In this document: one piece after another, positions 9,798-30,186 of the stretch
Layout of the letters: every line of letters begins with the position of its first letter
How positions within the stretch are numbered: the stretch's first letter is position 1
Assembly (NCBI GenBank): GCA_017856985.1
Contig: JAFMEA010000011.1
Location: 1 to 52,080, forward strand
Direction: 5' to 3'
Origin: Planktomarina sp.
Lineage (GTDB): Bacteria; Pseudomonadota; Alphaproteobacteria; Rhodobacterales; Rhodobacteraceae
Length of the DNA: 52,080 nt
The notes under the pieces: generated by a model
Database searches by the model: none
Seen by the model: the letters and a program-made list of their open reading frames with translations, nothing else
What the model was told of the DNA's origin: nothing
Translations under genes and position numbers: made by a program

Positions 9798-9813
9798 TTT
9801 ATATTGAAATAAT

Positions 9814-9841
9814 GGCGCCTGCGCGAAATTGCGTGGGCGCT
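9814..9841 (+). terminator. Intercistronic hairpin between TAXI receptor and permease
   Basis: GGCGCCTGCGC pairs with GCGTGGGCGCT across a GAAATT loop, an 11-bp stem with three G-U pairs, followed by a T-rich stretch. It sits in the 81-nt gap after the receptor gene. Such hairpins usually stabilise the receptor message or reduce read-through so that receptor exceeds permease. Confidence 0.6.
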
Positions 9842-9878
9842 TTAACTTTAAGTTTCTAGAAAATCTGAAAGTTTAATA

Positions 9879-12230
9879 ATGGTTGATACGAGAAAAGCAG
9901 GTCAAGCAACCAGTGACTTGGGCTTGAAAATCGTTTATTTTCTTACTGTGTCTATGGTTATTATAGGCTTAATTAATGCAACCCCGGGGATCCCAGGTTA
10001 TGACGATCTTATTGCTCGAATAACTGGGATTGATGGCGCAACTTTCAGAAAATTCCCTTTCGAATGGTTTTATCCCTCTTTTTTTGCACTAATGATGTTG
10101 ATCGTAGCATTGAAGCATTCGATGTGGCGGGCTTGGGCAGGTAAAGCACTTATACAACGCCAGTTTGGACTTTTTATGGACATCGCACTGGTTGTGATGG
10201 CTGCCACAATTTCAGTGACCTATTTCATTGAAATAGAAGCAATATGTCTTATTGACCAATTTACAGGTGACCGCGCTCGCCTAATTGCTGAGAGCCTAAA
10301 CTCAGAAAAAGAAATGGCTGAGCTTCTTGGAATGACGCCACCAACGACCGTTGATGACCCACAATGTGTAAATACAACTGGTGGATGGTTGGTTTTGATA
10401 GTTGGTTTGGCAATAACAGTTTTCCTTTCTTATAATGTCAAAGTATGGGGGTTTCCACTCGTTTTGGTAGCTATACTGATTGCAAGTTATACTATCATCA
10501 CGGTTTTAGTTTGGTATTTCCACGGTCCGGATGACATTAATAAATACCTGATGACTAAGCTTGCAGGTGAACCGCGCATATTGAGCGATGGGCGACCACG
10601 CATTCATGATATTTTAATAAATAATTCATCCGGCATGCTTGGTCGGTTTATGGACATCGTTCTCAATACAATTTTTCCATATTTAGTTTTGGGCTCTTTA
10701 TTCGGCAGCTCAGCTGGGGGGCGCTCATTAATTAAAGTTGCGTTTAGGCTGACACGTAATCTTCGTGGTGGGCCTGCACATGCCGCAGTTGTTTCTTCGG
10801 CTATGTTTGGAACCATCTCAGGCGGTCCAATTGTTAATGTTTTGTCTACTGGAGTTTTGACTATTCCAATGATGATCAAGCGTGGTTTTTCCAAGACCTT
10901 TGCCGGTGGGGTGGAAGCGGCTGCTTCATCAGGTGGCTCCATTATGCCGCCTGTTATGGGAGTTGCTGCCTTCGTCTTGGCTGCATTAACAGCAGTGCCT
11001 TATTCCAGCGTAATTATCGCTGCAGTGATCCCGGCGCTTTGTTATTTTTTCTGCCTTTTTCTCTCGGTAGTTTTCCAGTCGCGAAAGCAAAAAATTGAGG
11101 CTATTGGTGAATTGACAGAAGACATGCACCTTGGTTTTCAAGACTTGTTAAATCTCATCATGATTTTAGCCCCAATATTACTGATCCTTTTATTACTTCT
11201 AACTGATAAGGGTTCAGTGGGGTGTGGTTTCTTTAGTGGGATGATGGGTGCAGAGCGTATTATCACCGTGGATGGCTGTAATGTGATCAGCCTTTCTTGG
11301 GGCCAGCAATTAATACAAAACGCTGCTGGCGATGCAGGAAGTGCTGGCTGGATGGCCGTACTACTGCTTATGGCGTTATTGTTCGTAGATCCAGAAGTTC
11401 GTGCTAAACCTAAAAAAATAGTTGATGGTTTGTCTCAGGCGGGTGTATTGATCTCCACACTCTATTTAATGTTCCTTGCGGTTTCTATTATTGATTTTTG
11501 TTTGAACTTTACAGGTCTTCCAACTTTTCTGTCTCTTGATGTTTTACAGTGGCTACAAAGCTTGAACCTTGGGAATGGTGGGCCAGTGGTATTTCAATTG
11601 GTTGCTCTTCTTCTTACCATGTTTATTGCTATTTTGTTGGGGATGGGGATGCCAGCAGTGCCTGCTTATATCAATGTGGCTCTTTTGATGGGTCCAGTTT
11701 TGGCGGGTCTTGGAATTTCAACTTTTACCGCGCATATGTTTATCTTCTACTTTGCGGTAGCAAGTGCGATTACTCCGCCCGTAGCACTTGCTGCTTTTGC
11801 AGCCGCCACTATTACAAATGCTGGTCCTATGGGAACTGCCTTCTCGGCGGTTAAATCTGGAATTGTTATGTTTATAATTCCATTTGTATTTGCATTTTAT
11901 CCTGAAATTTTATTGATAGAAGACGCGGTGATTGATGCTAGATCAAATAGTGGCGGGGCAATAAAATATTTAGCAGACTATACAGGCACGCTTGATTTGG
12001 GCGTACTGGCTATGTTGCTGTTCAGGCTGGCGATTGCGCTATACCTAATTTCAAGCTCTCTATCTAGATTTGATTCAGGGCCACTCGGACCTGTGGAAGT
12101 AGTTTTACGTATCGGCTTAGCCATGCTGCTTCTATTCAAATCTCCATTAATTTTTAGTTTTGCTATAGTCGGTGCAGTTTTGGTAGTAGGAGTTCACCAA
12201 CTGCGTCATCGTGGGATAATACGATACTAA
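9879..12230 (+). CDS. TRAP transporter fused permease (DctQ-DctM), TAXI type
   Basis: A 783-residue inner-membrane protein combining small and large TRAP permease subunits, the usual arrangement for TAXI systems. The first third has several transmembrane helices with a soluble insertion around residues 125-165. The DctM-like part shows the conserved stretches AMFGTISGGPIVNV, EAAASSGGSIMPPVMGVAAFV and GMGMPAVPAYI and is strongly hydrophobic. It imports the ligand with Na+ or H+. It follows the receptor gene after an intercistronic hairpin. The C-terminal 120 residues contain further hydrophobic helices, a common extension in fused permeases. Confidence 0.92.
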   Translation: MVDTRKAGQATSDLGLKIVYFLTVSMVIIGLINATPGIPGYDDLIARITGIDGATFRKFPFEWFYPSFFALMMLIVALKHSMWRAWAGKALIQRQFGLFMDIALVVMAATISVTYFIEIEAICLIDQFTGDRARLIAESLNSEKEMAELLGMTPPTTVDDPQCVNTTGGWLVLIVGLAITVFLSYNVKVWGFPLVLVAILIASYTIITVLVWYFHGPDDINKYLMTKLAGEPRILSDGRPRIHDILINNSSGMLGRFMDIVLNTIFPYLVLGSLFGSSAGGRSLIKVAFRLTRNLRGGPAHAAVVSSAMFGTISGGPIVNVLSTGVLTIPMMIKRGFSKTFAGGVEAAASSGGSIMPPVMGVAAFVLAALTAVPYSSVIIAAVIPALCYFFCLFLSVVFQSRKQKIEAIGELTEDMHLGFQDLLNLIMILAPILLILLLLLTDKGSVGCGFFSGMMGAERIITVDGCNVISLSWGQQLIQNAAGDAGSAGWMAVLLLMALLFVDPEVRAKPKKIVDGLSQAGVLISTLYLMFLAVSIIDFCLNFTGLPTFLSLDVLQWLQSLNLGNGGPVVFQLVALLLTMFIAILLGMGMPAVPAYINVALLMGPVLAGLGISTFTAHMFIFYFAVASAITPPVALAAFAAATITNAGPMGTAFSAVKSGIVMFIIPFVFAFYPEILLIEDAVIDARSNSGGAIKYLADYTGTLDLGVLAMLLFRLAIALYLISSSLSRFDSGPLGPVEVVLRIGLAMLLLFKSPLIFSFAIVGAVLVVGVHQLRHRGIIRY

Positions 12231-17922: not shown

Positions 17923-19134
17923 GTGACTGAAATTGCAATCTCTGGCGCAGGTATCGGTGGATTGGTTACGGCGCTGTGCCTCAAATACCGGGGTTTTGAT
18001 GTAACAGTTTTTGAGGCAGATACTGAGATAAGGGCACTTGGCGTCGGTATTAATATAATGCCACATGCGTCAAAGTTATTAATAGAACTTGGGCTTGGCA
18101 GGCAACTTGATGAGCTTGGGATCCGAACTCGGTGCATTGAATACCGCACAAAGTTTGGTCATTTAATACAATCTGATCCTCGTAGCGTAGAGGCTGGTTT
18201 TGAAGCTCCACAATATTCGATCCATCGTGGTGAATTGCAAGCTATGTTGGCGAGTGAGGTCGAGAAACAGCTTGGTAATAGTTCTATTAGATTAGGTAAA
18301 CCTGTAGTTGGTTTTCGCCAAGGTCGTGGCTTTGTAACTATATTATTTAAGGATGGCTCCAAGCTGGATGCTAATCTGTTCGTTGATGCATCGGGCCTCC
18401 ACTCAAAGATAAGAAAGCAAATGAATCCATTTGAGGGGCCATTATGTTACGAGGGAACAATGATGTTCCGGGGTGCCACTGAAACGAATTTGATTGGCGA
18501 TGGCAAAACAATGGTCATAGCCGGCGATCATGATGTTAAGTTTGTGACTTACCCCATAAGCGAGCGCGCGCGTCAAAGTGGTCGCGCTCTGACTAATTGG
18601 GTGGCAGAGATACGCCACAGCGAGCCAAGGCATATTAATGATGCAGATTGGGGTAGGGGTGCTACAATAGATTTCATAAAACCGTTTGAAGACTTTTTTA
18701 TGCATGACATGAATTTGATTGAAATTATGAAAAAAACTGAAGTTGTTACCGAATATCCTATGGTAGACAGAAATCCTTTATTCTCTTGGGTTGAAGGTAA
18801 TGTCGCGTTGCTGGGCGATGCAGCACATCCAATGTATCCAATTGGAGCTAACGGTGCGAGCCAGGCAATACTTGACGCTTGGGCTATTGCTCATTGTCTT
18901 TCAGAAGAACCTAATACAGGTGGTTTGAAGGCTTACGAATTTGCGCGCCTGCCGATAACTACCGATGTTGTAGAAAGTAATAGGGAAGGTGGCCCAGAAA
19001 AGGTCCTCGATATAGCAGCTGCAAGGGTGAGTGGGCCCAATGACCGAATTGAAGACTTAATTTCTTCAACTGAGTTAAAACAGGTAGCAAGTTCTTACAA
19101 AAAAATTGCTGGGTTTGAAAAAAATAGAGTTTAA
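17923..19134 (+). CDS. FAD-dependent aromatic-ring hydroxylase-type monooxygenase
   Basis: Class A flavoprotein monooxygenase of 403 residues. The FAD ADP-binding motif GAGIGGLVTALCL is at the N-terminus and the second FAD motif LLGDAAHPMYPIGANG near residue 305. A DG-like segment lies between them. The family hydroxylates phenolic or heteroaromatic acids with NAD(P)H and O2; PhzS-like and 3-hydroxybenzoate hydroxylase-like enzymes are nearest by eye. The start is GTG at 17923. It converges on the IclR gene with only 4 nt between stop codons, so any shared terminator must lie within coding sequence. Confidence 0.88.
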   Translation: MTEIAISGAGIGGLVTALCLKYRGFDVTVFEADTEIRALGVGINIMPHASKLLIELGLGRQLDELGIRTRCIEYRTKFGHLIQSDPRSVEAGFEAPQYSIHRGELQAMLASEVEKQLGNSSIRLGKPVVGFRQGRGFVTILFKDGSKLDANLFVDASGLHSKIRKQMNPFEGPLCYEGTMMFRGATETNLIGDGKTMVIAGDHDVKFVTYPISERARQSGRALTNWVAEIRHSEPRHINDADWGRGATIDFIKPFEDFFMHDMNLIEIMKKTEVVTEYPMVDRNPLFSWVEGNVALLGDAAHPMYPIGANGASQAILDAWAIAHCLSEEPNTGGLKAYEFARLPITTDVVESNREGGPEKVLDIAAARVSGPNDRIEDLISSTELKQVASSYKKIAGFEKNRV

Positions 19135-19138
19135 CCTA

Positions 19139-19885
19139 CTAATTCTCCATTAATTTATCAATGTGGAAGGCCGTTTTGCGCAGGGCCGTTTCAATTAGTT
19201 TGCGCTTTTCCAAAAACCGGCTGCTGGGAACTGGAATCGATATTGCAACCACATCTCCCGAAAGGTCATTAAAAGCAAAGCCGATAGCAGAAATACCCAT
19301 TGTGTGAGCATCTTCGTCATAGGCGAGACGGTTATGTCTTATTTCTGAGAGCTTTTGCTCCATCTTTTTTATATCACTAATTATACCCCGTCGATCCCAC
19401 TCATCAGTAACAAGTGAATGCGCGGCTTTTGGTAAAATACGGGACAAACATGCCATTCCATTCGCCGTAGTAGTCAACGGAAAAACTTCACCGACAGATG
19501 AAATAGTTCGTAACCGTTGAGTGCCTGGCACCTGATCCAAAAATATCACTCCAGCACCTCGGAGAACAGACAAATCGGCTGTCTCCCCTGTGACTTCCGT
19601 TAACTCGGTCAAAAACAAACGACAAGTTTCTACTATGTTGTAATTTGTTGCTTGAGCCAATGCATTAACTTCTGGTCCAAGCCGGAGACTACCACCAGAT
19701 GCGTTTGAGATGACTAAGCGCTCAGCTTGCAGAGCATTTGCTATTCTTTGAACTGTGGAACGAGGCAGGTTTACCTGTTTGGAAATTTGGCCAAGGCTGA
19801 GCCCTGATTGGTTGTCTTTTAGTACTCTTAAGATACTTGCAGCACGTTCAATTACCTGAATACCTTTTTTTTGTTTTTGAGACAT
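19139..19885 (-). CDS. IclR-family transcriptional regulator
   Basis: A 248-residue regulator with an N-terminal winged helix-turn-helix (about 8-70; SLGQISKQVNLPRSTVQRIANAL is the recognition region) and a C-terminal IclR effector domain (about 80-245; RTISSVGEVFPLTTTANGMA and the late FNDLSGDVVAISIPVP are characteristic). It diverges from the 11-gene cyclase-BKACE-sulfatase operon with 183 nt between, and a palindromic operator candidate lies in that gap. Local repression or activation of that operon in response to its substrate or an intermediate is the simplest model, with the TAXI-TRAP promoter as a second target. Confidence 0.92.
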   Translation of the reverse strand: MSQKQKKGIQVIERAASILRVLKDNQSGLSLGQISKQVNLPRSTVQRIANALQAERLVISNASGGSLRLGPEVNALAQATNYNIVETCRLFLTELTEVTGETADLSVLRGAGVIFLDQVPGTQRLRTISSVGEVFPLTTTANGMACLSRILPKAAHSLVTDEWDRRGIISDIKKMEQKLSEIRHNRLAYDEDAHTMGISAIGFAFNDLSGDVVAISIPVPSSRFLEKRKLIETALRKTAFHIDKLMEN

Positions 19886-19934
19886 TTAAACTCTTTTAAC
19901 CCAAATATTTATCTTGTTTCAGACTTAACGTAAA

Positions 19935-20002
19935 CCGCCATACGATACAAGTATACTGCATAGCGGTTTTTGGTTGACGTCTTGGTGGTGAATATGCACC
20001 AA
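19935..20002 (+). promoter_or_regulatory. IclR-operon promoter/operator
   Basis: A 32-bp imperfect palindrome spans 19935-19966, with outer arms CCGC/GCGG and inner matches ATxC and TAxA (10 of 16 position pairs complementary). It is followed by GGTTTTTGGTTGACGT with -35 box TTGACG at 19974-19979. A second inverted repeat, TTGGTG-9 nt-CACCAA (19982-20002), covers the expected -10 region. Most of this arrangement recurs at 8479-8540. The position between the divergent IclR gene and its likely target operon fits an IclR operator. Confidence 0.6.
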
Positions 20003-20068
20003 TAGTAGGGACAAGAATCTAAAATCAAAGATTTCCAGCCTGATAAAGATCAAATAGGAGAAGAATAT

Positions 20069-20905
20069 ATGCAAGAAATTCGTGGTATAGAATTCCAAGA
20101 AAACCTTAACAACGACATGGGTTTGGAGTTCGTTAACTTAAGTCATCGATTTGGGTATCAATGCCCAAACTGGCCATATTTTAAAGATGTCGCAATCGAA
20201 CGAAAACACTATATGGCAAAATCTGGTGTTTTAAGTCAGACAATTACCACAACAATGCATGTCACGACGCACATTGATGCTCCAGCACATGTGGTCCAAG
20301 GAACCCCTTTTATTGACGAAGTTCCGCTACCTCACTTTTTTGGTAGTGGCCTTGTTGTCTCTATTCCCAAAAAGAAATGGGAAAGCATTACCAGGGAAGA
20401 TCTTGAGAAGGCCTGCGGACATGCAATTCGCAAGGGAGACGTTCTGATAATAAATACTGGTTGGCATAAGGTTTATGAAGATGGTGACTATTTTCCTTAT
20501 TGCCCTGGCCTAGTTCCATCGGCGGCAGATTGGATGGTAGAAAAAGGGATCAAGGTTGTAGGACATGACACCCAGGCAAATGATCACCCGTTAGCGACGG
20601 CAATTGGGCCGCAAAGAAATGGACCAATTCTGCCTCATCTTGAGGCAGAGTATAAAGAATGGTCTGGTGGAAATGACTGGAAAGATGATTTTCCGGTGTG
20701 GGAGCCGGTTCACAATAAATTATTTTCAAACGGTATTTTGGGAATAGAGAATGTTGGTGGGGATCTGGATTCTGTAACAGGTAAACGTGTAACTTTTGCA
20801 TTCTTTCCTTGGAACTGGGACCGAGGTGATGGTTGTATTATTCGTTTGGTTGCGATGACTGATAAAAAACAGGCGTATCGCATAGAATCTGGTGAGGCGT
20901 TCTAA
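20069..20905 (+). CDS. Cyclase-family metal-dependent hydrolase (kynurenine formamidase-like)
   Basis: A 278-residue member of the cyclase family, which contains bacterial arylformamidase KynB, isatin hydrolase and related amide/lactone hydrolases. The metal-binding motif is intact: HVTTHIDAPAH (residues 64-74), matching HxGTHxDxPxH except for Thr instead of Gly. GHDTQAND and the late AFFPWNW segment also fit. It is longer than KynB (about 210 residues) because of an N-terminal extension and an insertion. First gene of the 11-gene operon, with AGGAG 8 nt before the ATG, it overlaps the next gene by one base (TAATG). Its substrate is presumably an amide, formamide or lactone intermediate of the operon's pathway. 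Confidence 0.85.
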   Translation: MQEIRGIEFQENLNNDMGLEFVNLSHRFGYQCPNWPYFKDVAIERKHYMAKSGVLSQTITTTMHVTTHIDAPAHVVQGTPFIDEVPLPHFFGSGLVVSIPKKKWESITREDLEKACGHAIRKGDVLIINTGWHKVYEDGDYFPYCPGLVPSAADWMVEKGIKVVGHDTQANDHPLATAIGPQRNGPILPHLEAEYKEWSGGNDWKDDFPVWEPVHNKLFSNGILGIENVGGDLDSVTGKRVTFAFFPWNWDRGDGCIIRLVAMTDKKQAYRIESGEAF

Positions 20906-21252
20906 TGCAAGTTAAACGTTTTGAGGCAGCTGAAACCTATGACGCACCTAATCACCACGGGGTGGTTGGACTCCGGTTGCAGGGATTTGAAGAAGGTGGT
21001 CCTGAAAATCAGTGGATGGGGCTAAGCCAATTTTTGCCTGGTGGTGGCGCTGGTCCTGATTCAACTCCAATTGAAAAGGTTTATTTTATTGTTGAGGGTG
21101 AAATGACCGTAACCATTGATAATGTTGAGACAGTGCTTTCAAAATATGATAGCTGCACAATCCCTGCTGGCGAAACTCGAAAGATTGAAAATCGCACAAA
21201 CAATACGTGCACAATGTTAGTTGTCATGCCCTATCCGCCCGGAGTAAAATAA
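20905..21252 (+). CDS. Small cupin-domain protein
   Basis: A 115-residue single-domain cupin. The conserved barrel motifs are recognisable in degenerate form: GLSQFLPGGGAGPDSTPIEKVYFIVEGEMTV-like residues (about 41-70; the usual metal histidines are mostly missing) and the second motif DSCTIPAGETRKIENRTN (about 86-103). Its small size and weak metal motif suggest an isomerase, lactonase-like or accessory role rather than a dioxygenase. It overlaps the cyclase gene before it and the SDR after it by one base each, so it is translationally coupled to both. Confidence 0.8.
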   Translation: MQVKRFEAAETYDAPNHHGVVGLRLQGFEEGGPENQWMGLSQFLPGGGAGPDSTPIEKVYFIVEGEMTVTIDNVETVLSKYDSCTIPAGETRKIENRTNNTCTMLVVMPYPPGVK

Positions 21253-22037
21253 TGAATTCAATGCAGATGTTTGACGTGCAGGGTAAAACGGCCCTTATAA
21301 CAGGCGCGTCAGGTGCCTTTGGTATGGTCGCGGCCCGTGTTTTAGCAGAAGCTGGCTGCAGATTAGTTTTGGCTGCTGGCAATGTAGATGCCTTAGAGAC
21401 AATCTCGGAAGAATGCATCGCACTGGGTTCAGAAGTCATTAAGGTACATGGCCGTCCAACTGATGAAACTGCATGCCAATCGATGGTGGATGCAGCTGTA
21501 TCAGGCATGGGCAGCCTGGATATTTTAGTCGTGGCCTCAGGTATGAATAAAGTTGCGCCAATTAATGATATGGAACCTAAAACCTTTACTGATGTCATGG
21601 ACGCTAATGTTACGCAAACGTGGCTCCTTGCGCGCGCCGCATCAGCGCAAATGAAAGTGCAAGGCCATGGTGGTAAAATTGTGTTAGTTTCGTCTGCTCG
21701 TGGCTTGCTGGGACATCCTGCCGGATATACTGCTTATTGTGCATCAAAAGCTGCAGTGGATGGGATGACTAAAGCTCTTGGGTGTGAACTTGGACCAACT
21801 GGGATCACTGTCAATGCGATAGCGCCCACAGTATTTAGGTCACCGCTGACTTCATGGATGTTTGAAGATAATGAAAAGGCTAATGCGGTCCGCGCGGGTT
21901 TTTTAGCTAGGGTGCCCAAAGGTAGATTGGGTGAACCTGAAGACCTTGCTGGCCCACTTTTATTCTTAGCTTCAAGAGCTTCTGACTTTTATACTGGGCA
22001 CATTCTTTATGCTGATGGAGGTTATACGGCTGGATGA
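21252..22037 (+). CDS. Short-chain dehydrogenase/reductase (classical SDR)
   Basis: A 261-residue SDR with the cofactor motif TGASGAFGMVAA near residue 18 and the complete active site: serine in VSSARG and YCASK (Tyr and Lys). The C-terminus FYTGHILYADGGYTAG is typical. I chose the ATG at 21252, which overlaps the cupin stop (TAATG) and has GGAG upstream; an in-frame ATG at 21207 would add 15 residues that simply overlap the cupin gene. It probably oxidises a hydroxy group of the operon's substrate. It overlaps the following dehydrogenase gene by 4 nt (ATGA). Confidence 0.9.
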   Translation: MNSMQMFDVQGKTALITGASGAFGMVAARVLAEAGCRLVLAAGNVDALETISEECIALGSEVIKVHGRPTDETACQSMVDAAVSGMGSLDILVVASGMNKVAPINDMEPKTFTDVMDANVTQTWLLARAASAQMKVQGHGGKIVLVSSARGLLGHPAGYTAYCASKAAVDGMTKALGCELGPTGITVNAIAPTVFRSPLTSWMFEDNEKANAVRAGFLARVPKGRLGEPEDLAGPLLFLASRASDFYTGHILYADGGYTAG

Positions 22038-22963
22038 AACAAGTCTCGTTAATATCGGTTATAGGTGGTGGTTTGATGGGCCATGGAATAGCTTTGACCC
22101 TTGCGCGAGCTGGCCATCAGGTGCGTGTAACGGATCCTTCAGATAAGGCTCGCCTTTCGCTTAAAACACGCGTGACTGAAAGTTTAAGGCTCTTAGAAGT
22201 TGATGCTAATAAGATAGAGGCGGTTCTGAACAATATTGTGGTTTGTGACACAATAAAGGAGTCTGTCACAGACACAGAAATAGTATTTGAGGCTGGTCCA
22301 GAAAAACTAGAGGTTAAGCAGCAGATTTTTTCAGATTTAGAGAATTATGCCCCAAAAAACTCAATATTAGCATCTAATACATCTGTAATACCAATAACCA
22401 AAATTATGCAAAACTTAAATGGCAAACATCGTGCTCTAGGAACGCATTGGTGGAACCCAGCGCACATGATACCCTTAGTTGAGGTGATTAAAACCCAATG
22501 GACTGAGGGGAAATATGCGCAGGCTATGTTTGACCTTCTTGCAGCTTCAGGAAAAACTCCAGTTATGGTCGAAAAAGACGTAGCTGGATTTATAGGTAAC
22601 CGTTTGCAACACGCATTGTGGCGGGAAGCAATTAGCCTTGTTGAAAATGGGATATGCGATGCTGAAGCGGTTGATACAGTAGTTAAGTCTAGTTTTGGCC
22701 GCCGCTTAGCAGTACTTGGACCACTTGAGAATGCTGATCTGGTTGGTACAGATTTAACTTTGGACATCCACCAAAATGTTTTATTTGACTTGGAAAGTGG
22801 TGGTGGCACATCGCCATACTTGCAAAACATGGTCAAGAGAGGCGAATTTGGTATGAAATCAGGAAAAGGTTTTCATGTGTGGACTGATAAATCTGCTTCG
22901 AAAATACGCGAAAGGGTCAGTAAACATCTTCAAAAGCTGGAAGAAATTTTGAAAAATCCATAA
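22034..22963 (+). CDS. 3-hydroxyacyl-CoA dehydrogenase-family oxidoreductase
   Basis: A 309-residue NAD-dependent dehydrogenase with Rossmann motif GGGLMGHGIALTLARAGH and the catalytic region GTHWWNPAHMIPLVEVI, whose histidine matches the catalytic His of 3-hydroxyacyl-CoA dehydrogenases. The SNTSVIPI segment holds the conserved serine and asparagine. The C-terminal helical domain is present. Its length matches stand-alone members such as L-carnitine dehydrogenase rather than multifunctional beta-oxidation enzymes. With BKACE in the same operon, the expected product is a beta-keto acid, as in carnitine degradation, where dehydrocarnitine is cleaved by BKACE. Confidence 0.88.
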   Translation: MKQVSLISVIGGGLMGHGIALTLARAGHQVRVTDPSDKARLSLKTRVTESLRLLEVDANKIEAVLNNIVVCDTIKESVTDTEIVFEAGPEKLEVKQQIFSDLENYAPKNSILASNTSVIPITKIMQNLNGKHRALGTHWWNPAHMIPLVEVIKTQWTEGKYAQAMFDLLAASGKTPVMVEKDVAGFIGNRLQHALWREAISLVENGICDAEAVDTVVKSSFGRRLAVLGPLENADLVGTDLTLDIHQNVLFDLESGGGTSPYLQNMVKRGEFGMKSGKGFHVWTDKSASKIRERVSKHLQKLEEILKNP

Positions 22964-23002
22964 TTGCATCGCCCGCAAATGGGCAGTTTCTAGGAGGAAA
23001 AA

Positions 23003-24283
23003 ATGAAACGAAATATTTTAAAAACACCGAATAGGCGCACATTTTTGGCTGGATCAGGAGCGTTGATTGCTACCCCTGCTATACTAACTAGCACACGTGC
23101 TTACGCTGCTAATAAGATACTTAAAGTAGGGTATGTACACCCAAAAACTGGCCCTTTAGCGGGGTTTGCTGAAGCTGATGACTTCATAATAGAAGGTATC
23201 AAAAAAATCTTTGCTGGAGGTTTGCAAAACAACGGTAGTTCTTGGGATATCGAAATCATTACCCGAGACAGTCAATCCAACCCTAATCGTGGAGCGGAAG
23301 TTGCTGCGGATCTAATACTGCGTGATGAAGTAGATATAATCATGGCAGCAGGTACGCCTGATACAACTAATCCGGTCGCAGACCAGGCTGAAATAAACGA
23401 AGTTCCTTGTATTACTACAGATGCACCCTGGCAGCCGTATTTCTTTGGGCGAGGTGGCAACCCAGTGGAAGGCTTTCAAAGTACCTACCACTTCTTTTGG
23501 GGTCTAGAAGACGTAATTGGAGTTTTCCTTGACCTCTGGGGACAGAGTGGTGCTGCGAAGAAGGTTGGTGGACTATTTCCGAATGATGCTGATGGAAATG
23601 CATGGGGAGATGCAAAACTTGGACTACCGCCGGCGCTTTCCGGTGCTGGGTTTGATCTAACTGATCCTGGCCGTTATCAGCCATTATCAGATGACTTCTC
23701 CAACCAAATAGCAGCATTTCGCGATGCAGAATGTGAAATAGTAACTGGGGTGATGATACCACCAGATTTTGCGACTTTCTGGGCGCAGGCGGCACAGCAG
23801 GGCTTTAATCCCAAAGTAGCGACTATTGGTAAAGCTATTTTGTTTCCATCGGTAGTAGAGTCCTTAGGTGCTCGTGGAGACGGTCTTACTTCGGAAGTCT
23901 GGTGGTCTCCAAATCATCCCTTTAATTCATCCTTAACGGGAGATTCCGCTCAGGATTTAGTTGATGGATATACGGCAGCCACTGGCCGTCCATGGACACA
24001 ACCTATTGGCTTTAGACACGCTTTGTTTGAGGTGGTAGCTGACGTTGTGAAGCGTGCTGAAGATCTGGATAACCCTGAGGCGATTACTGCTTCTATTGCA
24101 GCGACGCAATTAGAGACAATTGTTGGACGCATTGATTGGTCAAATGGACCTGTTAAGAATGTTTCTAAGACCCCACTTGTTGGTGGGCAATGGCAGAAGA
24201 ATGGCGATACGTTAGACTTAAAAATAGTTGGTAATTCTGATCACCCAAGTATTCCAAAAACTGGTATGCTGAAAACGCTTTAA
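23003..24283 (+). CDS. ABC transporter substrate-binding protein, branched-chain amino acid (HAAT) type, Tat-exported
   Basis: Periplasmic receptor of a Liv-type importer, 426 residues. The N-terminus carries a twin-arginine signal (NRRTFLAGSGALIATPAIL) ending near AYAAN. The mature part starts KILKVGYVHPKTGPLAGF, the usual periplasmic type I opening, and has the DLILRDEVDIIMAAGTPDT segment. Tat export implies folding before translocation. AGGAGG precedes the ATG. It follows the dehydrogenase by 39 nt, a gap with a weak GCCC/GGGC hairpin, and is followed by a strong hairpin. The ligand need not be an amino acid; HAAT receptors also bind aromatic acids, amides and polyols. Confidence 0.9.
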   Translation: MKRNILKTPNRRTFLAGSGALIATPAILTSTRAYAANKILKVGYVHPKTGPLAGFAEADDFIIEGIKKIFAGGLQNNGSSWDIEIITRDSQSNPNRGAEVAADLILRDEVDIIMAAGTPDTTNPVADQAEINEVPCITTDAPWQPYFFGRGGNPVEGFQSTYHFFWGLEDVIGVFLDLWGQSGAAKKVGGLFPNDADGNAWGDAKLGLPPALSGAGFDLTDPGRYQPLSDDFSNQIAAFRDAECEIVTGVMIPPDFATFWAQAAQQGFNPKVATIGKAILFPSVVESLGARGDGLTSEVWWSPNHPFNSSLTGDSAQDLVDGYTAATGRPWTQPIGFRHALFEVVADVVKRAEDLDNPEAITASIAATQLETIVGRIDWSNGPVKNVSKTPLVGGQWQKNGDTLDLKIVGNSDHPSIPKTGMLKTL

Positions 24284-24290
24284 CGTAATT

Positions 24291-24316
24291 GGCAGTGCTG
24301 AGTAATCAGCGCTGCC
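24291..24316 (+). terminator. Intercistronic hairpin with GUAA tetraloop after the receptor gene
   Basis: GGCAGTGCTGA pairs with TCAGCGCTGCC (11 bp, one G-U) around a GTAA loop, a stable GNRA tetraloop. It lies in the 51-nt gap between receptor and ATPase genes. No long T-tract follows, so partial attenuation or 3'-end protection of the receptor message is more likely than full termination. Confidence 0.65.
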
Positions 24317-24334
24317 TCCTTTGACTGGAATAGA

Positions 24335-25063
24335 ATGTCGCCTATCTTGAAGTTGCGTGGCTTATCTAAATCGTTTGGTGCGGTCGTCGTAGCAGATGAA
24401 TTAAGCTATGAAATGCAATCTGGTGAAGCACTTGGAATTATTGGGCCGAATGGTGCTGGTAAAACCACAATGTTTAACCTCATTACTGGCACACTATTTC
24501 CTGATAGGGGTAATGTAAGTTTTCTTGGTAAGGACGTGACCAAGTACTCGGCGGCTCGACGGTGTCGATTGGGGATGGCCCGAAGTTTTCAGGTGCCGCA
24601 ACCATTTTCTGGTATGACAGTCTTTGAAAATGCAATGATTGCTGCAACACAGGCTGCTGGATTGTCGGGCCGTAAAGCAGAAAATAGTTGCCTTTCAGTT
24701 TTGGAACAGACGGATTTGTTAGATAAAGCAAATGTTTTGGCAGGAAGTCTCAATTTACTTGATCGAAAGAGGTTAGAGTTGACTAGGGCACTCTGTGCAA
24801 AGCCTAAACTTCTGATGTTAGATGAAATAGCTGGCGGTTTGACCGAAGGTGAATGTATTAGCTTAGTACAAACAATCAAAGACATTCGTTCGACTGGTGT
24901 TTCTATTATTTGGATTGAACACGTTGTGCATGCATTAATGGCTGTTGTAGATAGATTGATCGTGATCGACTTTGGGAAGAAGATTGCGGAGGGTATGCCA
25001 AAAGACATTATGGCGAGTTCAGAGGTACAGGAAGTTTACTTAGGAATCGAAGTGGATGGCTGA
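24335..25063 (+). CDS. Liv-type ABC transporter ATPase, LivG-like
   Basis: A 242-residue cytoplasmic ATPase. The Walker A motif is GPNGAGKTT and Walker B is LLMLDEI. The signature region reads [15 protein letters not shown], not the canonical LSGGQ, which is normal for LivG proteins, though the usual proline after DE is isoleucine. The early [18 protein letters not shown] is a LivG hallmark. It overlaps the second ATPase gene by 8 nt and works with it as a heterodimer driving the LivH/LivM permease. Confidence 0.93.
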
Positions 25064-25763
25064 CCCTCTGCTTCAAATTTCTAAACTTGATGCGTATTAC
25101 AATGATTTCCAAGCTTTGTATCAATTAGATATGAGCTTGGGAGAAGGAGAAGTCTTAGCAATTATTGGTTCTAATGGTGCTGGTAAAACTACACTGATGC
25201 GTTCAATTTCTGGGCTAATAAGTAATAATTCCTCACAAATGAGGTATCGGGGTAATCCTATTGGTGCATTGAGGGCTGATCAAGTAGCTGCACTAGGTAT
25301 AGCCTTAGTTCCTGAAGGGAGACAGCTGTTCCCATCTCTTTCGGTCGAGGAAAATCTATTGATTGGTGGGCGACTGGGTCGTAAAGGACCTTGGTCGCTT
25401 AGAACTGTTTTTAATCTGTTCCCAATACTTAAAGAGCGCCGAACACTTCCATCTACCTCTCTATCAGGAGGTCAACAACAAATGGTGGCAATAGGCCGTG
25501 CTTTAATGTCAAATCCTGATTTGATTTTATTTGATGAGATTAGTCTTGGACTTGCCCCTGTTATCATAAAATCAATTTATGATGCTTTACCTAATATTGT
25601 TGGAGAAGGCATTTCAGCGATGATTGTTGAACAGGATATTAGCAAAGCTATCTCAGTATCCAACCGGGTGTACTGTTTACAAGAAGGACGCATTTCTCTG
25701 GAAGGTGCATCTAAAAGTATTTCGCGCGAAGAGATTAGTCACGCGTATTTTGGAATTACCTGA
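25056..25763 (+). CDS. Liv-type ABC transporter ATPase, LivF-like
   Basis: A 235-residue ATPase with Walker A GSNGAGKTT, signature LSGGQQQMVAIGRAL and Walker B LILFDEISLGLAP; VPEGRQLFPSLSVEENLLIG is characteristic of LivF. It overlaps the LivG-like gene by 8 nt and the LivH-like gene by one base (TGATG). It pairs with LivG to energise import of the ligand delivered by the Tat-exported receptor. Confidence 0.93.
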   Translation: MADPLLQISKLDAYYNDFQALYQLDMSLGEGEVLAIIGSNGAGKTTLMRSISGLISNNSSQMRYRGNPIGALRADQVAALGIALVPEGRQLFPSLSVEENLLIGGRLGRKGPWSLRTVFNLFPILKERRTLPSTSLSGGQQQMVAIGRALMSNPDLILFDEISLGLAPVIIKSIYDALPNIVGEGISAMIVEQDISKAISVSNRVYCLQEGRISLEGASKSISREEISHAYFGIT

Positions 25764-26626
25764 TGGATTGGGTTAACGTGATAGTTCAGGGTACATTATT
25801 GGGAGGGCTGTATGCTTTATTTGCAGCTGGGCTCTCTTTAATATTCGGTGTGATGCGTTTGGTTAATATTGCACATGGCGATTTAATAATTTTTGCAGCT
25901 TATCTGGGTCTTACTGTAGTTATGACAACTGGACTTCATCCAATTTTGGCATTGGTTTTTGTTATACCGGCCATGGCTTTAATTGGTTATGCACTTCAAG
26001 TAGGTATACTTAATCACACTCTTGGTGATGACTTATTGCCTCCTCTGCTGGTCACGTTTGGACTGTCTGTTATTATACAAAATAGTTTATTGGAAATTTA
26101 TACTGCTGACCCGCAAAAAATGGACGCTGGAGTACTTGAAACCGCAAGCTTTTCGTTAGGCGACCTTCAGCTTGGTGTTTTACCCGTGCTCACATTTGGG
26201 ATTGCTGTTGTTGTGATTGCAAGTTTGCAATGGCTTTTCTATCGAACTGCCTTGGGTCGTGCCTTTCGGGCTGTTTCTGATGATCAAGATATAGCTCAAT
26301 TGATGGGATTAAATCGCCGCCATATATTTGGACTAGCGATGGCCTTGGCTTTAGCTGTTACCGCCATAGCCGGAATTTTGTTGGGCATTCGAACAAGTTT
26401 TGATCCTTCGGTAGGTGGTGGGCGTTTGATATTTGGCTTTGAGGCCGTGATCATTGGTGGGTTAGGAAACCTTTGGGGTACACTTGCTGGTGGGGTAATA
26501 CTGGGAGTCGCTCAGACTATTGGAGCCAAGATTGATCCGGGATGGCAGATTTTGGCAGGACATGTAGCATTTTTATTAGTGCTTGCCATTCGTCCGCAAG
26601 GACTTTTCCCAAGGATCAGTGGATGA
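25763..26626 (+). CDS. Liv-type ABC transporter permease, LivH-like
   Basis: A 287-residue inner-membrane permease with about eight helices. The N-terminus GTLLGGLYALFAAGLSLIFGVMRLVNIAHGD is the family hallmark (residues about 10-40), and AFRAVSDDQDIAQLMG is the cytoplasmic coupling segment that contacts the ATPases. The C-terminal GGLGNLWGTLAGG is also conserved. It overlaps the next permease gene by 4 nt (ATGA). Confidence 0.93.
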   Translation: MDWVNVIVQGTLLGGLYALFAAGLSLIFGVMRLVNIAHGDLIIFAAYLGLTVVMTTGLHPILALVFVIPAMALIGYALQVGILNHTLGDDLLPPLLVTFGLSVIIQNSLLEIYTADPQKMDAGVLETASFSLGDLQLGVLPVLTFGIAVVVIASLQWLFYRTALGRAFRAVSDDQDIAQLMGLNRRHIFGLAMALALAVTAIAGILLGIRTSFDPSVGGGRLIFGFEAVIIGGLGNLWGTLAGGVILGVAQTIGAKIDPGWQILAGHVAFLLVLAIRPQGLFPRISG

Positions 26627-27633
26627 GAGTTATTCGTACATCTAAGGCAGCAAAAATTTCGATAATGTTAGCAACTTTGGTCTTACTGGTACTTATTTTA
26701 GCTCCCTGGTGGGCTGGACGCGCGGACATTCGACTAATGGGTGAATTATTTCTTTATCTGGCTTTAGCTAGCCTATGGAATTTAATGGCTGGATACGCCG
26801 GCTTGGTTTCTGTTGGTCAGCAGGCCTACGTTGGGTTTGGTGGCTATATGTTATTTGCTCTTACAATTTTTGCTGGATTTCCACCAGTTGTAGCAATTGT
26901 TGGTGCTGGCGCGTTAGGTGCTCTGGTATCTGTTCCGGTGGCACTTTTAATTTTTCGTTTACGTGGAGCTTACTTCGCAATTGGAACGTGGGTCATTGCA
27001 GAGGTATTTAGACTATCTTTCGCACAAGTGTCTGCTTTGGGTGGTGGTTCTGGATCTTCTTTACCGGTTAAGATTGTGCGTTCTATGGCGGATGGTCGGT
27101 CAGAGAGAGAGGCATTAAGCTATTGGCTGGCACTTGGCATTGCTTTTTGTGTTATTGCGGCCGTTTATATGTTTCTACGGTCACGGCAAGGCCTCGCTCT
27201 TACAGCAATACGAGATAATGAATTGGCGGCGTCTTCTCTTGGAATAGATATTTGGCGAACAAAATTTGTGGTTTATGTCGTAGCATCAGCTCTCACAGCT
27301 ATGGTTGGAGCTTTGATCTTTCTGCAAAAACTACGCATATCACCGGATGCAGCATTCTCTGTAAATGATTGGACCGCATTTGTTATTTTCATTGTTGTAA
27401 TTGGCGGTATTGGAACAATAGAAGGCCCGATCATTGGGACCCTTATTTTCTTTGCGTTGCGTGAAACGCTTGCAGATCTTGGCACTGTATATTTGATGGT
27501 CCTAGGTGTGGTTGCTATATTGATAATGCTAAGAGCGCCAAAAGGGTTGTGGGGGCTTGTTCGTGCTCGATTTGATTTAGAACTCTTTCCATTGGGGTAC
27601 AGAGTTATTTCTGATAAAGTGAAAAAGGAATAA
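26623..27633 (+). CDS. Liv-type ABC transporter permease, LivM-like
   Basis: A 336-residue inner-membrane permease partner of LivH. The SLWNLMAGYAGLVSVGQQAYVG-type segment (about 48-68) and the coupling segment LTAIRDNELAASSLGID are family hallmarks, as is GGIGTIEGPIIGT. I chose the ATG at 26623, overlapping the LivH stop codon; a longer reading from 26542 would only overlap LivH and encode a non-family N-terminus. BKACE begins 2 nt after its stop. Confidence 0.92.
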   Translation: MRVIRTSKAAKISIMLATLVLLVLILAPWWAGRADIRLMGELFLYLALASLWNLMAGYAGLVSVGQQAYVGFGGYMLFALTIFAGFPPVVAIVGAGALGALVSVPVALLIFRLRGAYFAIGTWVIAEVFRLSFAQVSALGGGSGSSLPVKIVRSMADGRSEREALSYWLALGIAFCVIAAVYMFLRSRQGLALTAIRDNELAASSLGIDIWRTKFVVYVVASALTAMVGALIFLQKLRISPDAAFSVNDWTAFVIFIVVIGGIGTIEGPIIGTLIFFALRETLADLGTVYLMVLGVVAILIMLRAPKGLWGLVRARFDLELFPLGYRVISDKVKKE

Positions 27634-27635
27634 AC

Positions 27636-28568
27636 ATGGCTAAGCAACGAAAAACAATTATAACTTGCGCGATAACTGGTGCGATCCATACTCCCACTAT
27701 GTCTGATGCGCTTCCCTATACGGCTGACGATATTACTTCTCAAGCTATTGCCGCGTCAGAAGCAGGAGCTTCGATATTACACTTACATGCCAGACGTGAG
27801 AATGATGGTGGTGTTTCAGTTGAACCTTCTGATTTTGCGAGATTTTTACCTAGAATTAAACAAGCCACTGATGCGATTGTTAATATATCAACCGGTGGAA
27901 GCCTCACTTTATCAATTAAAGATCGGGTTAAGCCCGCAACTACTTTCTCTCCAGAAATGTGCAGTTTGAATATGGGTTCAATGAATTTTTCATTTCATCC
28001 ACTTGCTGAGCGATACGATCAATGGAAATTTGATTGGGAGAAAGATTATGTAAAAGGTTCAGAAGGGAATATATTTAGAAATACGTTTCGTGATATTCGG
28101 GAGGCGGCAGAAACGTTGGCCCCACATGACATTAAGTTTGAGCATGAGTGCTATGATGTTGGTCATTTGTATAATTTGAAATTTTGTATGGATACTGGTT
28201 TGTTTAAGGCTCCAGTATTTATCCAGTTTATATTTGGCATTCTCGGAGGAATTGGTGCTGATATTGACAATCTAATATTTATGAAACGCACTGCTGACCG
28301 CTTGTTTGGTGATGATTACAGATGGTCTGTACTTGGGGCAGGTGGATCACAAATTCCGTTTGCGACTACGGCTAGCCAGATGGGTGGAAATGTGAGAGTT
28401 GGACTTGAAGATAGTTTGCTTATTTCTCGAGGGAAGTTGGCAGATAACAATGCCCAACAAGTTGGAAAAATTCGTAGAATAATTGAAGATTTAGGTAGTG
28501 AGGTAGCTAGCCCAGATGAGGCTAGAGAGATCCTTGCGCTTAAAGGTGGTGATAGGGTGAATTTCTAA
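27636..28568 (+). CDS. Beta-keto acid cleavage enzyme (BKACE, former DUF849)
   Basis: A 310-residue zinc enzyme that condenses a beta-keto acid with acetyl-CoA and splits it into acetoacetate plus a new CoA ester. Hallmarks are the N-terminus KTIITCAITGAIHTP, the metal-binding HLHAR (His49 and His51) and the NISTGGS strand. Known family substrates include 3-keto-5-aminohexanoate, dehydrocarnitine and other polar beta-keto acids. Position between a dedicated importer and a sulfatase, in an operon with two dehydrogenases, suggests it cleaves the oxidised form of the imported compound. Spacing is 2 nt from LivM and 1 nt to the sulfatase. Confidence 0.92.
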   Translation: MAKQRKTIITCAITGAIHTPTMSDALPYTADDITSQAIAASEAGASILHLHARRENDGGVSVEPSDFARFLPRIKQATDAIVNISTGGSLTLSIKDRVKPATTFSPEMCSLNMGSMNFSFHPLAERYDQWKFDWEKDYVKGSEGNIFRNTFRDIREAAETLAPHDIKFEHECYDVGHLYNLKFCMDTGLFKAPVFIQFIFGILGGIGADIDNLIFMKRTADRLFGDDYRWSVLGAGGSQIPFATTASQMGGNVRVGLEDSLLISRGKLADNNAQQVGKIRRIIEDLGSEVASPDEAREILALKGGDRVNF

Positions 28569-28569
28569 A

Positions 28570-30186
28570 ATGAATGCTTTATGGATAATGGTAGATCAGC
28601 TTCGTTGGGATTATCTGAGTTGCTATGGTGCCAAACACATTGATACGCCGAACATAGACTGGCTAGCATCCCGTGGTATGACCTTTAACAAAGCTTACGT
28701 GCAGTCGCCAATTTGTGGGCCTGCTCGAATGAGCTTTTACACTGGTAGATATACACGAAGCCATGGAGCGACGTGGAATGGTTTTCCTTTACGTGTTGGT
28801 GAGCCTACTTTGGGTGATCATTTGCGAGAGCAAGGGGTTAGCTGTACACTGGTAGGTAAAACTCACATGGCGCCTGATAAAGATGGCATGGCGCGGCTTG
28901 GTATAGATCCAAAAAGCACTGTTGGAAAAAGAGTTAGTGAAGGTGGGTTCGACGTTTTCATTAGGGATGATGGAAACAACAATTCTGATTGTTTAGTCCG
29001 TCATTCGGAAGATTATGATAAATATTTAAGGTCGCATGGCATGGATGGAGATAATCCATGGGAAGAATGGGCTAATACCGCTCAGCTTCCGGACGGCTCA
29101 TTGTGTTCGGGTTGGATGCTAGAAAACTCAAAATATGCGGCACGTGTCCCGAAAGAACATTCTGAAACTGCCTGGTTAACAACCCGTGGCATTGATTTTA
29201 TAGAAGCTCAAGGGGCTGACCCTTGGCTTTGCCACCTAAGTTATATTAAACCTCATTGGCCATATTTAGCTCCGGCTCCCTATAATGACATGTATTCTGC
29301 ATCAGATCTTCCACCGGTAAACCGTTCCAATGCCGAATTAGTATCTGATCATCCATTAATGCAGGCTTGGACAAACATGCGCGTAAGCCAAAGCTTTTCC
29401 CGTGATGACGTTCGCGATATTGTTGGGCCAGCCTACATGGGATTAATTAAAGAATTGGATGACCAACTTGGGCGACTTTTCGACTATCTCAGAGAAAATG
29501 GTCGGATGGAGGATACTATGATCGTATTTTGTTCAGATCATGGTGATAATCTCGGTGATCATTGGCTTGGTGAAAAAGATTTATTTTATGATTGCTCCGC
29601 ACGAATTCCCTTGATCGTGTACGATCCGCGCAGCGATGCAGATAGTACAAGGGGCATGGTCACAGATAAGTTAGTTGAAGGTATCGATTTGTTGCCAACG
29701 TTTATTGATGCATTTGGTGGGAATGCCATTCCTCATATCTTGGAAGGTAGATCATTAGAACCTCTTTTGCATGGAATTGAATGTGAATGGCGCAGTTTTT
29801 GTGTTAGTGAATATGACTACTCTACCCGTGATGCTCGCCGTGCAGTTGGTGTTGATCAAATGGATGCCCGGTTGGTTATGATTTTTGACGGTCGTTGGAA
29901 ATTGACTCATGTTGAAAATATGCGGCCAATGCTGTTTGATCTTGATATTGATCCAAATGAATTAAATGATCTTGGCAATAATCCGGATTTTAAGGGTCAA
30001 ATATCTCGTTTGCGGGAACTTCATTTTGAGTGGGCCCGGAGACATCATAATAGAATTACGCGACCAGCCGCGATCGTTGAAAAGATGACTGATGCTAAAG
30101 AACCACCAGGGGTTATGATAGGTTACTGGAACCAAAAAGAACTTAAGCCTTCAGGGCGTAGACTGCCTAACCATGTTGATAAATAA
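28570..30186 (+). CDS. Cytoplasmic type I sulfatase (alkaline phosphatase superfamily)
   Basis: A 538-residue member of the sulfatase / phosphonate monoester hydrolase branch. The formylglycine motif is complete: CGPAR (Cys49 to Arg53) followed by the TGR anchor (CxPxRxxxxTGR). Metal ligands are visible at the N-terminus (WIMVDQLR) and in SDHGDNLGDH (about 322-331); KPHW and EKDLFYD segments also fit. There is no signal peptide, so it acts in the cytoplasm on an imported sulfate ester (or phospho-/phosphonate diester, a known alternative in this branch). Last gene of the operon. Its formylglycine-generating partner is not in the window. Confidence 0.9.
   Translation: MNALWIMVDQLRWDYLSCYGAKHIDTPNIDWLASRGMTFNKAYVQSPICGPARMSFYTGRYTRSHGATWNGFPLRVGEPTLGDHLREQGVSCTLVGKTHMAPDKDGMARLGIDPKSTVGKRVSEGGFDVFIRDDGNNNSDCLVRHSEDYDKYLRSHGMDGDNPWEEWANTAQLPDGSLCSGWMLENSKYAARVPKEHSETAWLTTRGIDFIEAQGADPWLCHLSYIKPHWPYLAPAPYNDMYSASDLPPVNRSNAELVSDHPLMQAWTNMRVSQSFSRDDVRDIVGPAYMGLIKELDDQLGRLFDYLRENGRMEDTMIVFCSDHGDNLGDHWLGEKDLFYDCSARIPLIVYDPRSDADSTRGMVTDKLVEGIDLLPTFIDAFGGNAIPHILEGRSLEPLLHGIECEWRSFCVSEYDYSTRDARRAVGVDQMDARLVMIFDGRWKLTHVENMRPMLFDLDIDPNELNDLGNNPDFKGQISRLRELHFEWARRHHNRITRPAAIVEKMTDAKEPPGVMIGYWNQKELKPSGRRLPNHVDK

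Follow-up and report, generated by a model that had tools for sequence, protein, structure and literature searches.

The closest described system to the locus analysed here is the phloroglucinol cluster of Clostridium scatologenes, reported in 2023 and reconstituted in vitro (PMC10470551). It comprises a short-chain dehydrogenase/reductase (SDR) that serves as phloroglucinol reductase (PGR), a cyclase-family dihydrophloroglucinol cyclohydrolase (DPGC) that opens the ring by a retro-Claisen reaction, TfD, which resembles 3-hydroxyacyl-CoA dehydrogenases (3HCDHs), and TAL, a member of the beta-keto acid cleavage enzyme (BKACE) family. We compared this system with an operon on contig JAFMEA010000011.1, within a stretch of 52,080 nucleotides that is called the window at its full length. 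Judging from its relatives, the source bacterium would be marine and belong to the Rhodobacteraceae group. The operon consists of 11 plus-strand open reading frames (ORFs) at 20069-30186, with a divergent IclR gene at 19139-19885, and its products belong to the families Cyclase, Cupin_2, SDR, 3HCDH, Peripla_BP_6 (receptor), two ABC ATPases, two BPD_transp_2 permeases, BKACE and Sulfatase. At seven of the ten junctions, adjacent genes overlap by 1-4 nt or lie 1-4 nt apart, counted with the LivM start set at ATG 26623, which gives a 4-nt overlap with LivH; the other three are an 8-nt overlap, a 39-nt gap and a 51-nt gap. The ORFs and domains confirmed the 11 genes and the divergent IclR given in an earlier note on this DNA (the original prediction), and its view of one catabolic operon was supported. 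Its further claim of an undescribed pathway did not hold, as four of the enzymes match the C. scatologenes set; the core pathway is not new, since the 2023 report already places the cluster in marine alpha- and gammaproteobacteria (PMC10470551).

Taking the analysis as a whole, we consider it probable that the operon encodes phloroglucinol catabolism extended by an arylsulfatase for sulfated phloroglucinol. The parts of this reading differ in strength: the core is very probably the reductive phloroglucinol pathway, and the service of the sulfatase to sulfated phloroglucinol is the somewhat favoured assignment. Most likely, the core enzyme set is the one already described, and the added element is the arylsulfatase that stands behind the operon in one clade.

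The best sequence match of the SDR in the Protein Data Bank (PDB) was 5g4k/5g4l with 177.8 bits (the next different protein reached 154.1), and the first Foldseek match of its AlphaFold model (pLDDT 89.9) was 5g4l, 'Phloroglucinol reductase from Clostridium sp. with bound NADPH', at 40% identity. A PTVFRS-LT-WMF stretch is common to the window SDR and the crystallised reductase. In a tree of 109 SDRs, the 37 window-type sequences formed one clade and, together with 51 PGR-type sequences, were set apart at 100/99 from an outside group of 10 SDRs of a third cluster type and 11 other SDRs. PGR-type SDRs, 46-88% identical to the crystallised PGR, were co-clustered with cyclase, dehydrogenase and BKACE in clostridia and others, and mycobacterial clusters carried the window-type SDR (50-55%). 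The SDR of the Acetoanaerobium cluster (L044) did not have PGR as its best match, so that this cluster was an insufficient bridge; the wider scan described below gave clusters with PGR-type SDRs. From these sequence comparisons, the SDR is probably a phloroglucinol reductase.

For DPGC of C. scatologenes, Trp20 and Tyr22 are named at the substrate site, and isatin hydrolase is given as the nearest characterised relative (PMC10470551). The window cyclase has Trp35-Pro36-Tyr37 at the place where these residues align; C. scatologenes was not among the 80 scan loci kept, so its proteins were compared only through the residue numbers of that report. Among 116 aligned cyclases, the window included, the Trp was found in 113, the Pro in 115, the Tyr in 109 and the metal-site His in 115. 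The cyclase model was of middling quality (pLDDT 77), and its fold matches fell on the family at large, including isatin hydrolases and kynurenine formamidases, with a Ruegeria cyclase-phosphotriesterase in first place. The enzyme, taken for an amide/lactone hydrolase in the original prediction, most likely hydrolyses a C-C bond in a reduced aromatic ring (a retro-Claisen reaction) and is probably a dihydrophloroglucinol cyclohydrolase.

Regarding the last two enzymes, the catalytic His and Asn of the 3HCDH-like proteins were conserved in 90 and 91 of the 91 aligned dehydrogenases, respectively, and the gene keeps its place within the cluster. In TfD, the CoA-binding Lys56 and Asn221 are described as lost (PMC10470551). 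The window BKACE scored 527.4 bits against a cut-off of 430 for the NCBIfam model NF053538, '3,5-dioxohexanoate:acetyl-CoA acetone transferase', and it is this family score by itself that places the enzyme among the triacetate-cleaving BKACEs. Triacetate is 3,5-dioxohexanoate, an intermediate of phloroglucinol degradation. The closest PDB relative, at 377 bits, was 8rio/8rip, BKACE15 of P. denitrificans. This enzyme takes several beta-keto acids, and 3,5-dioxohexanoate is one of its confirmed substrates; its authors note that the context suggests aromatic degradation and call the physiological role unknown (PMC11961710). Cleavage of 3,5-dioxohexanoate by the window BKACE is thus probable from its sequence. 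Four more BKACE genes are present in the same genome, on contigs C168, C53, C149 and C110.

The association of these genes is more than chance. A cyclase match (E up to 1e-40) was found in 22 of 198 sampled genomes of the family. Among 17 family loci, each of at least 18 kb and fetched for holding the cyclase (the congeners L096 and L097 were counted apart), cupin, SDR and 3HCDH-like genes were present in all 17, the BKACE in 15 and a full cyclase in 16; L095 starts inside the cyclase at a contig edge, and L091, the other end of this split gene, lies outside the 17. All ten core genes stood in the window order cyclase-cupin-SDR-3HCDH-substrate-binding protein (SBP)-LivGFHM-BKACE in 14 of the 17, which agrees with the expectation that gene order would be conserved in relatives. 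The divergent IclR gene adjoins the cyclase in most family relatives compared. A genome scan of bacteria and archaea gave at least 513 relatives, of which the best 80 were kept; in the stretch covered, 66 of these 80 had an SDR (at least 45% identity to one of three cluster types), 60 a 3HCDH-like gene (at least 33%) and 53 a BKACE (at least 36%). Plasmids of Pacificitalea, Sinorhizobium and Aminobacter also carry the operon (in Aminobacter, an SBP homologue was not found), and in Novosphingobium and Rhizorhabdus it comes with an MFS transporter or no transporter. MBL-fold hydrolases lie in the phloroglucinol operons of Pacificitalea (L037, 12912-13895) and Aminobacter (L038, 15394-16362), possibly as front-end hydrolases. 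In Rhodobacteraceae bacterium SC52 (L043, 12001-12336), the cyclase match ends beside an IS5 transposase, and no other gene of the operon was found past the IclR gene in that stretch.

The cupin is a constant companion of the pathway in the family operons and common in other clusters. All 17 family loci of at least 18 kb had it and, at no less than 38% identity and on the strand of the cyclase, so did 42 of the 80 scan loci (25 of the 39 of at least 15 kb); a looser count of 51/80 and 28/39 took in weak and opposite-strand matches, and the stricter one was used. A small cupin accompanies phloroglucinol enzymes in several phyla (window 20905-21252; cupins of L111-L190). The protein presumably lacks the usual His-x-His metal ligands of cupins.

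The sulfatase had its best PDB matches in 4upi and 4upl (642 and 613 bits), with phosphonate hydrolases at no more than 232 bits. Both structures are S. pomeroyi arylsulfatases, SpAS1 and SpAS2 (PMC5870055, PMC12421950). A Lys and a His (K101/H103 of SpAS1) against the Tyr and Thr/Asp of phosphonate monoester hydrolases (PMH) are reported to separate the two groups (PMC5488252), and the window enzyme has both Lys and His at the discriminating positions (GKTH). Its formylglycine motif C-x-P-S/A-R is present as C-G-P-A-R, and a formylglycine-generating enzyme (FGE) is encoded elsewhere in the genome (PF03781, 232 bits, contig C84). Inspected by eye, the protein begins directly at the conserved core with no apparent signal peptide, in line with the cytoplasmic location originally proposed. 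The question of whether BKACE and sulfatase group with enzymes of known substrates, raised by the original prediction, has a divided answer: the BKACE falls in a characterised subgroup, and for the sulfatase it is the nearest solved relatives that are characterised arylsulfatases.

Of the 22 family genomes that have the cyclase, 6 had a close sulfatase (at least 65% identity), against 3 of the 176 that lack it (p 6.5e-5; 4e-4 without the window's genome). The 65% threshold was set after inspection of the list, where no entry falls between 69% (or, for a fragment, 66%) and 59%. The gene stands directly behind the BKACE in the window, in the two congeners L096 and L097, and in G169 and G144. In a tree of cyclase, SDR and dehydrogenase, seven linked operons, spanning five genera, were grouped at 98/95 in a single set of 8 rows whose remaining member is unlinked, so that the linkage on this tree is one gain plus one loss, or two gains. 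In this scoring, G176 counted as linked with its operon (L094) and sulfatase (L193) on different contigs; on L193, a BKACE end and a TRAP transporter are found, with a partial sulfatase 2.9 kb on. The distant sulfatases of L079 and L081 were scored as none, and G090, which has no cyclase, was left out. In G090, the sulfatase stands behind a LivM fragment and a BKACE, and no other operon gene was found; this stretch (L106, 9973-13733, by tblastn) is likely a decayed operon copy, in whose flank six of eight frames had no Pfam match.

Phloroglucinol is a building block of brown-algal polyphenols, and brown algae make phlorotannins that are partly sulfated. In a seaweed study, phloroglucinol sulfate and diphloroethol sulfates were annotated at confidence level 2, and phlorotannin sulfates were typical of brown species other than wakame (PMC12432060). 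For an arylsulfatase in the phloroglucinol operon of such a bacterium, phloroglucinol sulfate would be the most economical substrate.

The strongest competing explanation, which we consider unlikely though worth weighing, is that the operon degrades free phloroglucinol and the cotranscribed sulfatase is a general scavenger of aryl sulfates, for sulfur or for other phenols. Some findings speak for this or weigh against the sulfated-phloroglucinol reading. Eleven of the 17 family loci had no such sulfatase, three had a close one and three a distant one (52-53%), and the sulfatase was not found in any of the best 80 of at least 513 genome-scan loci. In the sulfatase tree, linked copies were mixed with unlinked ones, and a clade of linked copies was rejected (p-AU 7.4e-5). 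Since close copies are also present where a genome has no cyclase, the range of the enzyme may extend to several aryl sulfates, and the SpAS enzymes are described as promiscuous. In G033, the sulfatase lies 0.75 kb behind LivM with no BKACE at that place. Against a mere scavenger stand the enrichment given above and the grouping of linked operons from five genera in one operon-tree set. Taken together, the single set and the mixed sulfatase tree suggest that the sulfatase joined the operon once or twice, and that its kin serve elsewhere. Distant sulfatases (52-59%, not one resolved lineage) near the operon in L077, L079, L081 and L090, a few kb off or adjoining the cyclase, point the same way. 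In L077 (1125-8690, G180), the arrangement is different, with the cyclase followed by another arylsulfatase (59%) and AAA, CoxE, XdhC and MobA-like genes.

The path by which a sulfate ester would enter the cell has to be weighed separately. In the family, the HAAT system accompanies the core operon with or without the sulfatase, and its receptor, whose N-terminus carries the twin-arginine stretch RRTFLAG (by eye), had weak PDB relatives only. Among 18 sulfatase loci including the window, 13 had a TRAP gene within 2.1 kb; of these, L074 has a truncated binding protein only and L107 a binding protein only. Five loci are without a near TRAP gene: in the window and in L097 it lies at a distance of about 16 kb, the stretch of L096 and the contig of L077 have none, and the contig of L192 is short. 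Since the HAAT system tracks the core and relatives of the sulfatase often stand beside TRAP genes, the sulfate ester may not enter via HAAT. The window encodes a TAXI-like protein and a fused permease that are 71-77% identical to the pair beside the sulfatase in L085, L103 and L104, and the same neighbours were found in G015 and G005. The permease scored 331.6 bits against a cut-off of 320.65 for TIGR02123. The binding protein (8748..9797) had no Pfam or NCBIfam match; its homologues in L085 and L103 match NMT1_3 over the cut-off, and one in L106 matches TRAP_TAXI below it.

At 23 of 37 places among the matches listed, a relative of the permease (E limits of 1e-100 in the genus and 1e-200 in the family samples) had an SpAS-type sulfatase no more than 15 kb away, at 21 no more than 6 kb away, and such proximity occurred in 19 of 33 genomes among the matches listed for both samples. 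At most 5 or 7 candidates were scored per family genome, so these counts are lower bounds. The pairing was noticed first and counted after, and the chance figure of 9e-32 ignores relatedness. Two findings speak against the proposed reading: the TRAP genes and the sulfatase of the window itself are 16.3 kb apart and were scored as a miss, and G017 (L096) keeps the sulfatase and BKACE without most HAAT genes. In L096 (12393-12494), nothing of the SBP and LivGFH and only a 26-residue tail of LivM is left between the 3HCDH-like gene and the BKACE, which could be a deletion or an assembly fault. We infer that the probable TAXI-TRAP system at 8748-12230 is an aryl-sulfate importer, and a TAXI-TRAP with an SpAS-type arylsulfatase is likely a general pair for aryl-sulfate uptake.

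From these assignments, the following route can be proposed. An aryl sulfate, most likely brown-algal phloroglucinol sulfate, would enter, probably via the TAXI-TRAP system, and the HAAT ABC importer would probably bring in phloroglucinol as such or in a different form. Once matured by the FGE, the cytoplasmic arylsulfatase would yield phloroglucinol and sulfate. The next four steps are probable by homology to the reconstituted C. scatologenes enzymes: the SDR would reduce phloroglucinol to dihydrophloroglucinol, the cyclase-family enzyme would open the ring hydrolytically to 3-hydroxy-5-oxohexanoate, the 3HCDH-like enzyme would oxidise this to 3,5-dioxohexanoate, and the BKACE would convert the latter with acetyl-CoA to acetoacetyl-CoA and acetoacetate. 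The originally proposed oxidation followed by BKACE cleavage with acetyl-CoA agrees with the phloroglucinol pathway; desulfation was retained as well, and the likely order became desulfation, reduction, ring opening, oxidation and cleavage. A wider proposal is offered tentatively, at somewhat less than even confidence: TAXI-TRAP aryl-sulfate importer, cytoplasmic arylsulfatase, reductive and oxygen-independent ring opening and the cupin as a fifth component may form a dedicated marine route for sulfated brown-algal phenolics, with the TRAP/sulfatase pair as a general uptake module of the family.

Further findings count against the core assignment itself. In the fold search, 5g4l was barely ahead of a gluconate-type SDR (2.2e-27 vs 4.1e-27), and where the NADPH motif of PGR has Arg (5g4k: TGRN), the window SDR (AGN) and its clade carry Gly; with this Arg replaced, the claim is for a PGR-like enzyme, whatever its cofactor. 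The dehydrogenase residues checked are common to ordinary 3HCDHs and do not discriminate, so the assignment of that enzyme rests on the cluster. The window BKACE has Ile17 where TAL has Trp16. At this position, the 85 BKACEs of the loci had W in 45 cases and I in 38, and since clusters of this kind may have either type, the two BKACE subgroups seem mutually replaceable. AacS, one route of acetoacetate activation, scored below the cut-off in the genome; CoA transferases and other routes were not searched. It is on such grounds, namely an SDR clade without the NADPH Arg that is separate from the clostridial reductases, and a BKACE of another subgroup whose relative BKACE15 takes several beta-keto acids, that the substrate might be a sulfated relative of phloroglucinol (a substituted phloroglucinol, another 1,3-dihydroxy aromatic or a cyclic 1,3-diketone) degraded by the same chemistry. 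We regard this as improbable, given the conserved cyclase and SDR motifs and an NCBIfam equivalog that points to 3,5-dioxohexanoate, the intermediate expected from phloroglucinol.

Much less probable still is the scheme of the original prediction, in which the sulfate ester of a hydroxy compound enters via HAAT, is desulfated, oxidised to a beta-keto acid and cleaved. The gene inventory fits it, but it gives no clear role to the SDR and the cyclase, both of which the phloroglucinol pathway explains, and SpAS1 and SpAS2 had no detectable activity on the alkyl sulfate choline-O-sulfate. That the 'sulfatase' is a phosphonate monoester hydrolase (PehA/RlPMH) or phosphodiester hydrolase is scarcely credible: it belongs to the same superfamily and PehA was its best NCBIfam match, but at 327 against a cut-off of 900, and the discriminating Lys and His (PMC5488252) as well as the PDB scores rule for an arylsulfatase. 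Other candidates for the core were also rejected. Triacetic acid lactone catabolism, with the cyclase as lactonase, was dropped, as the phloroglucinol pathway accounts for the SDR and dehydrogenase too; judged by titles and abstract openings, no report of such a catabolic pathway was found. For a carnitine-type BKACE pathway, the dehydrogenase scored 148.5 against a cut-off of 592 and 120.5 against 414 bits, and the lysine-fermentation enzyme Kce scored below its cut-off.

Features of the operon and of the neighbouring genes considered in the window
Feature	Coordinates	Strand	Basis
IclR-type regulator, divergent, probable operon regulator	19139..19885	-	PF01614 101.7 bits, PF09339
Cyclase-family enzyme, probable dihydrophloroglucinol cyclohydrolase (DPGC)	20069..20905	+	PF04199; Trp35-Pro36-Tyr37; fold matches
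Small cupin	20905..21252	+	PF07883; kept alongside pathway genes
SDR, probable phloroglucinol reductase	21252..22037	+	PDB sequence match, fold match, tree, motif
3-Hydroxyacyl-CoA-dehydrogenase-like, probable (S)-3-hydroxy-5-oxohexanoate dehydrogenase	22034..22963	+	PF02737/PF00725; cluster position kept
HAAT-type substrate-binding protein with twin-arginine leader	23003..24283	+	PF13458
ABC ATPase, LivG-like	24335..25063	+	PF00005; best NCBIfam match LivG, below cut-off
ABC ATPase, LivF-like	25056..25763	+	PF00005; best NCBIfam matches UrtE and LivF, below cut-off
ABC permease, LivH-like	25763..26626	+	PF02653
ABC permease, LivM-like	26623..27633	+	PF02653
BKACE, probable 3,5-dioxohexanoate (triacetate) cleavage enzyme	27636..28568	+	NF053538; PF05853 341 bits; PDB 8rio/8rip
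Arylsulfatase, SpAS type, no apparent signal peptide	28570..30186	+	PF00884; PDB 4upi/4upl; CGPAR and GKTH motifs
Probable TAXI-type TRAP substrate-binding protein, proposed sulfatase partner	8748..9797	+	71-77% identity to proteins beside the same sulfatase in L085, L103, L104, L106
Fused TRAP permease, proposed sulfatase partner	9879..12230	+	TIGR02123; relatives near SpAS-type sulfatases
FAD monooxygenase, tail to tail with IclR, pathway link uncertain	17923..19134	+	PF01494; PRK07538 448.5 bits vs cut-off 400

On the upstream side, the FAD monooxygenase gene (17923-19134) ends 4 nt from the IclR gene and adjoins it in the congeners L096, L097 and L194, and it was not seen beside IclR in the other family loci compared; being linked within the genus only, it was left out of the mechanism. 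Directly behind the operon, two similar proteins of 162 and 167 aa are encoded on the minus strand (30218-30706 and 30989-31492); their genes had no Pfam match and are kept in L096 and L097. The promoter scan gave no clear promoter, with 18 promoter-like sites against 24.9 expected, and 19 terminator-like sites were found against 10.7 expected.

To our knowledge, little is known about the mineralisation of phlorotannins by marine bacteria. In the open-licence literature, no report combining a BKACE with a sulfatase was found. Judged by titles and abstract openings in that literature, none on point was found for phloroglucinol with a sulfatase or sulfate ester in bacteria, and no pairing of TRAP with an arylsulfatase was reported; in the part of it covered, no such genes were reported for marine bacterial phlorotannin degradation. 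If the proposed reading is true, these genes would be markers of bacteria that use sulfated phloroglucinol, and polyphenol carbon would be tied to the turnover of organic sulfur. The TRAP/sulfatase pairing would point to aryl sulfates as the class of ligands for one group of TAXI-TRAP transporters, and the conserved cupin stands out in a pathway whose other parts have been reconstituted in vitro.

Compared with known systems, the proposed importer would resemble the glutamate-specific TAXI-TRAP of Vibrio cholerae (PMC11574862) in having what is probably a TAXI-type binding protein in a TRAP system; the window-type fused permease differs in accompanying arylsulfatases, and an aryl-sulfate ligand is proposed for this transporter. 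TAXI-TRAP transporters are, according to one abstract, widespread and poorly understood. Among solved structures, SpAS1 and SpAS2 of Silicibacter pomeroyi (4UPI/4UPL) are the closest relatives of the sulfatase, with the formylglycine cysteine motif and the Lys/His signature in common, and BKACE15 of Paracoccus denitrificans (8RIO/8RIP/9HNF), which accepts 3,5-dioxohexanoate, is the closest BKACE. The words 'cupin' and 'sulfatase' were not found in the main text of the C. scatologenes report (PMC10470551). With the C. scatologenes cluster, the window shares the same four enzyme families together, the key cyclase residues and an SDR that is sister to the reductases of such clusters. It differs from that cluster in a BKACE of another subgroup and an SDR without the NADPH Arg, and it adds a HAAT ABC importer, an IclR gene and an arylsulfatase.

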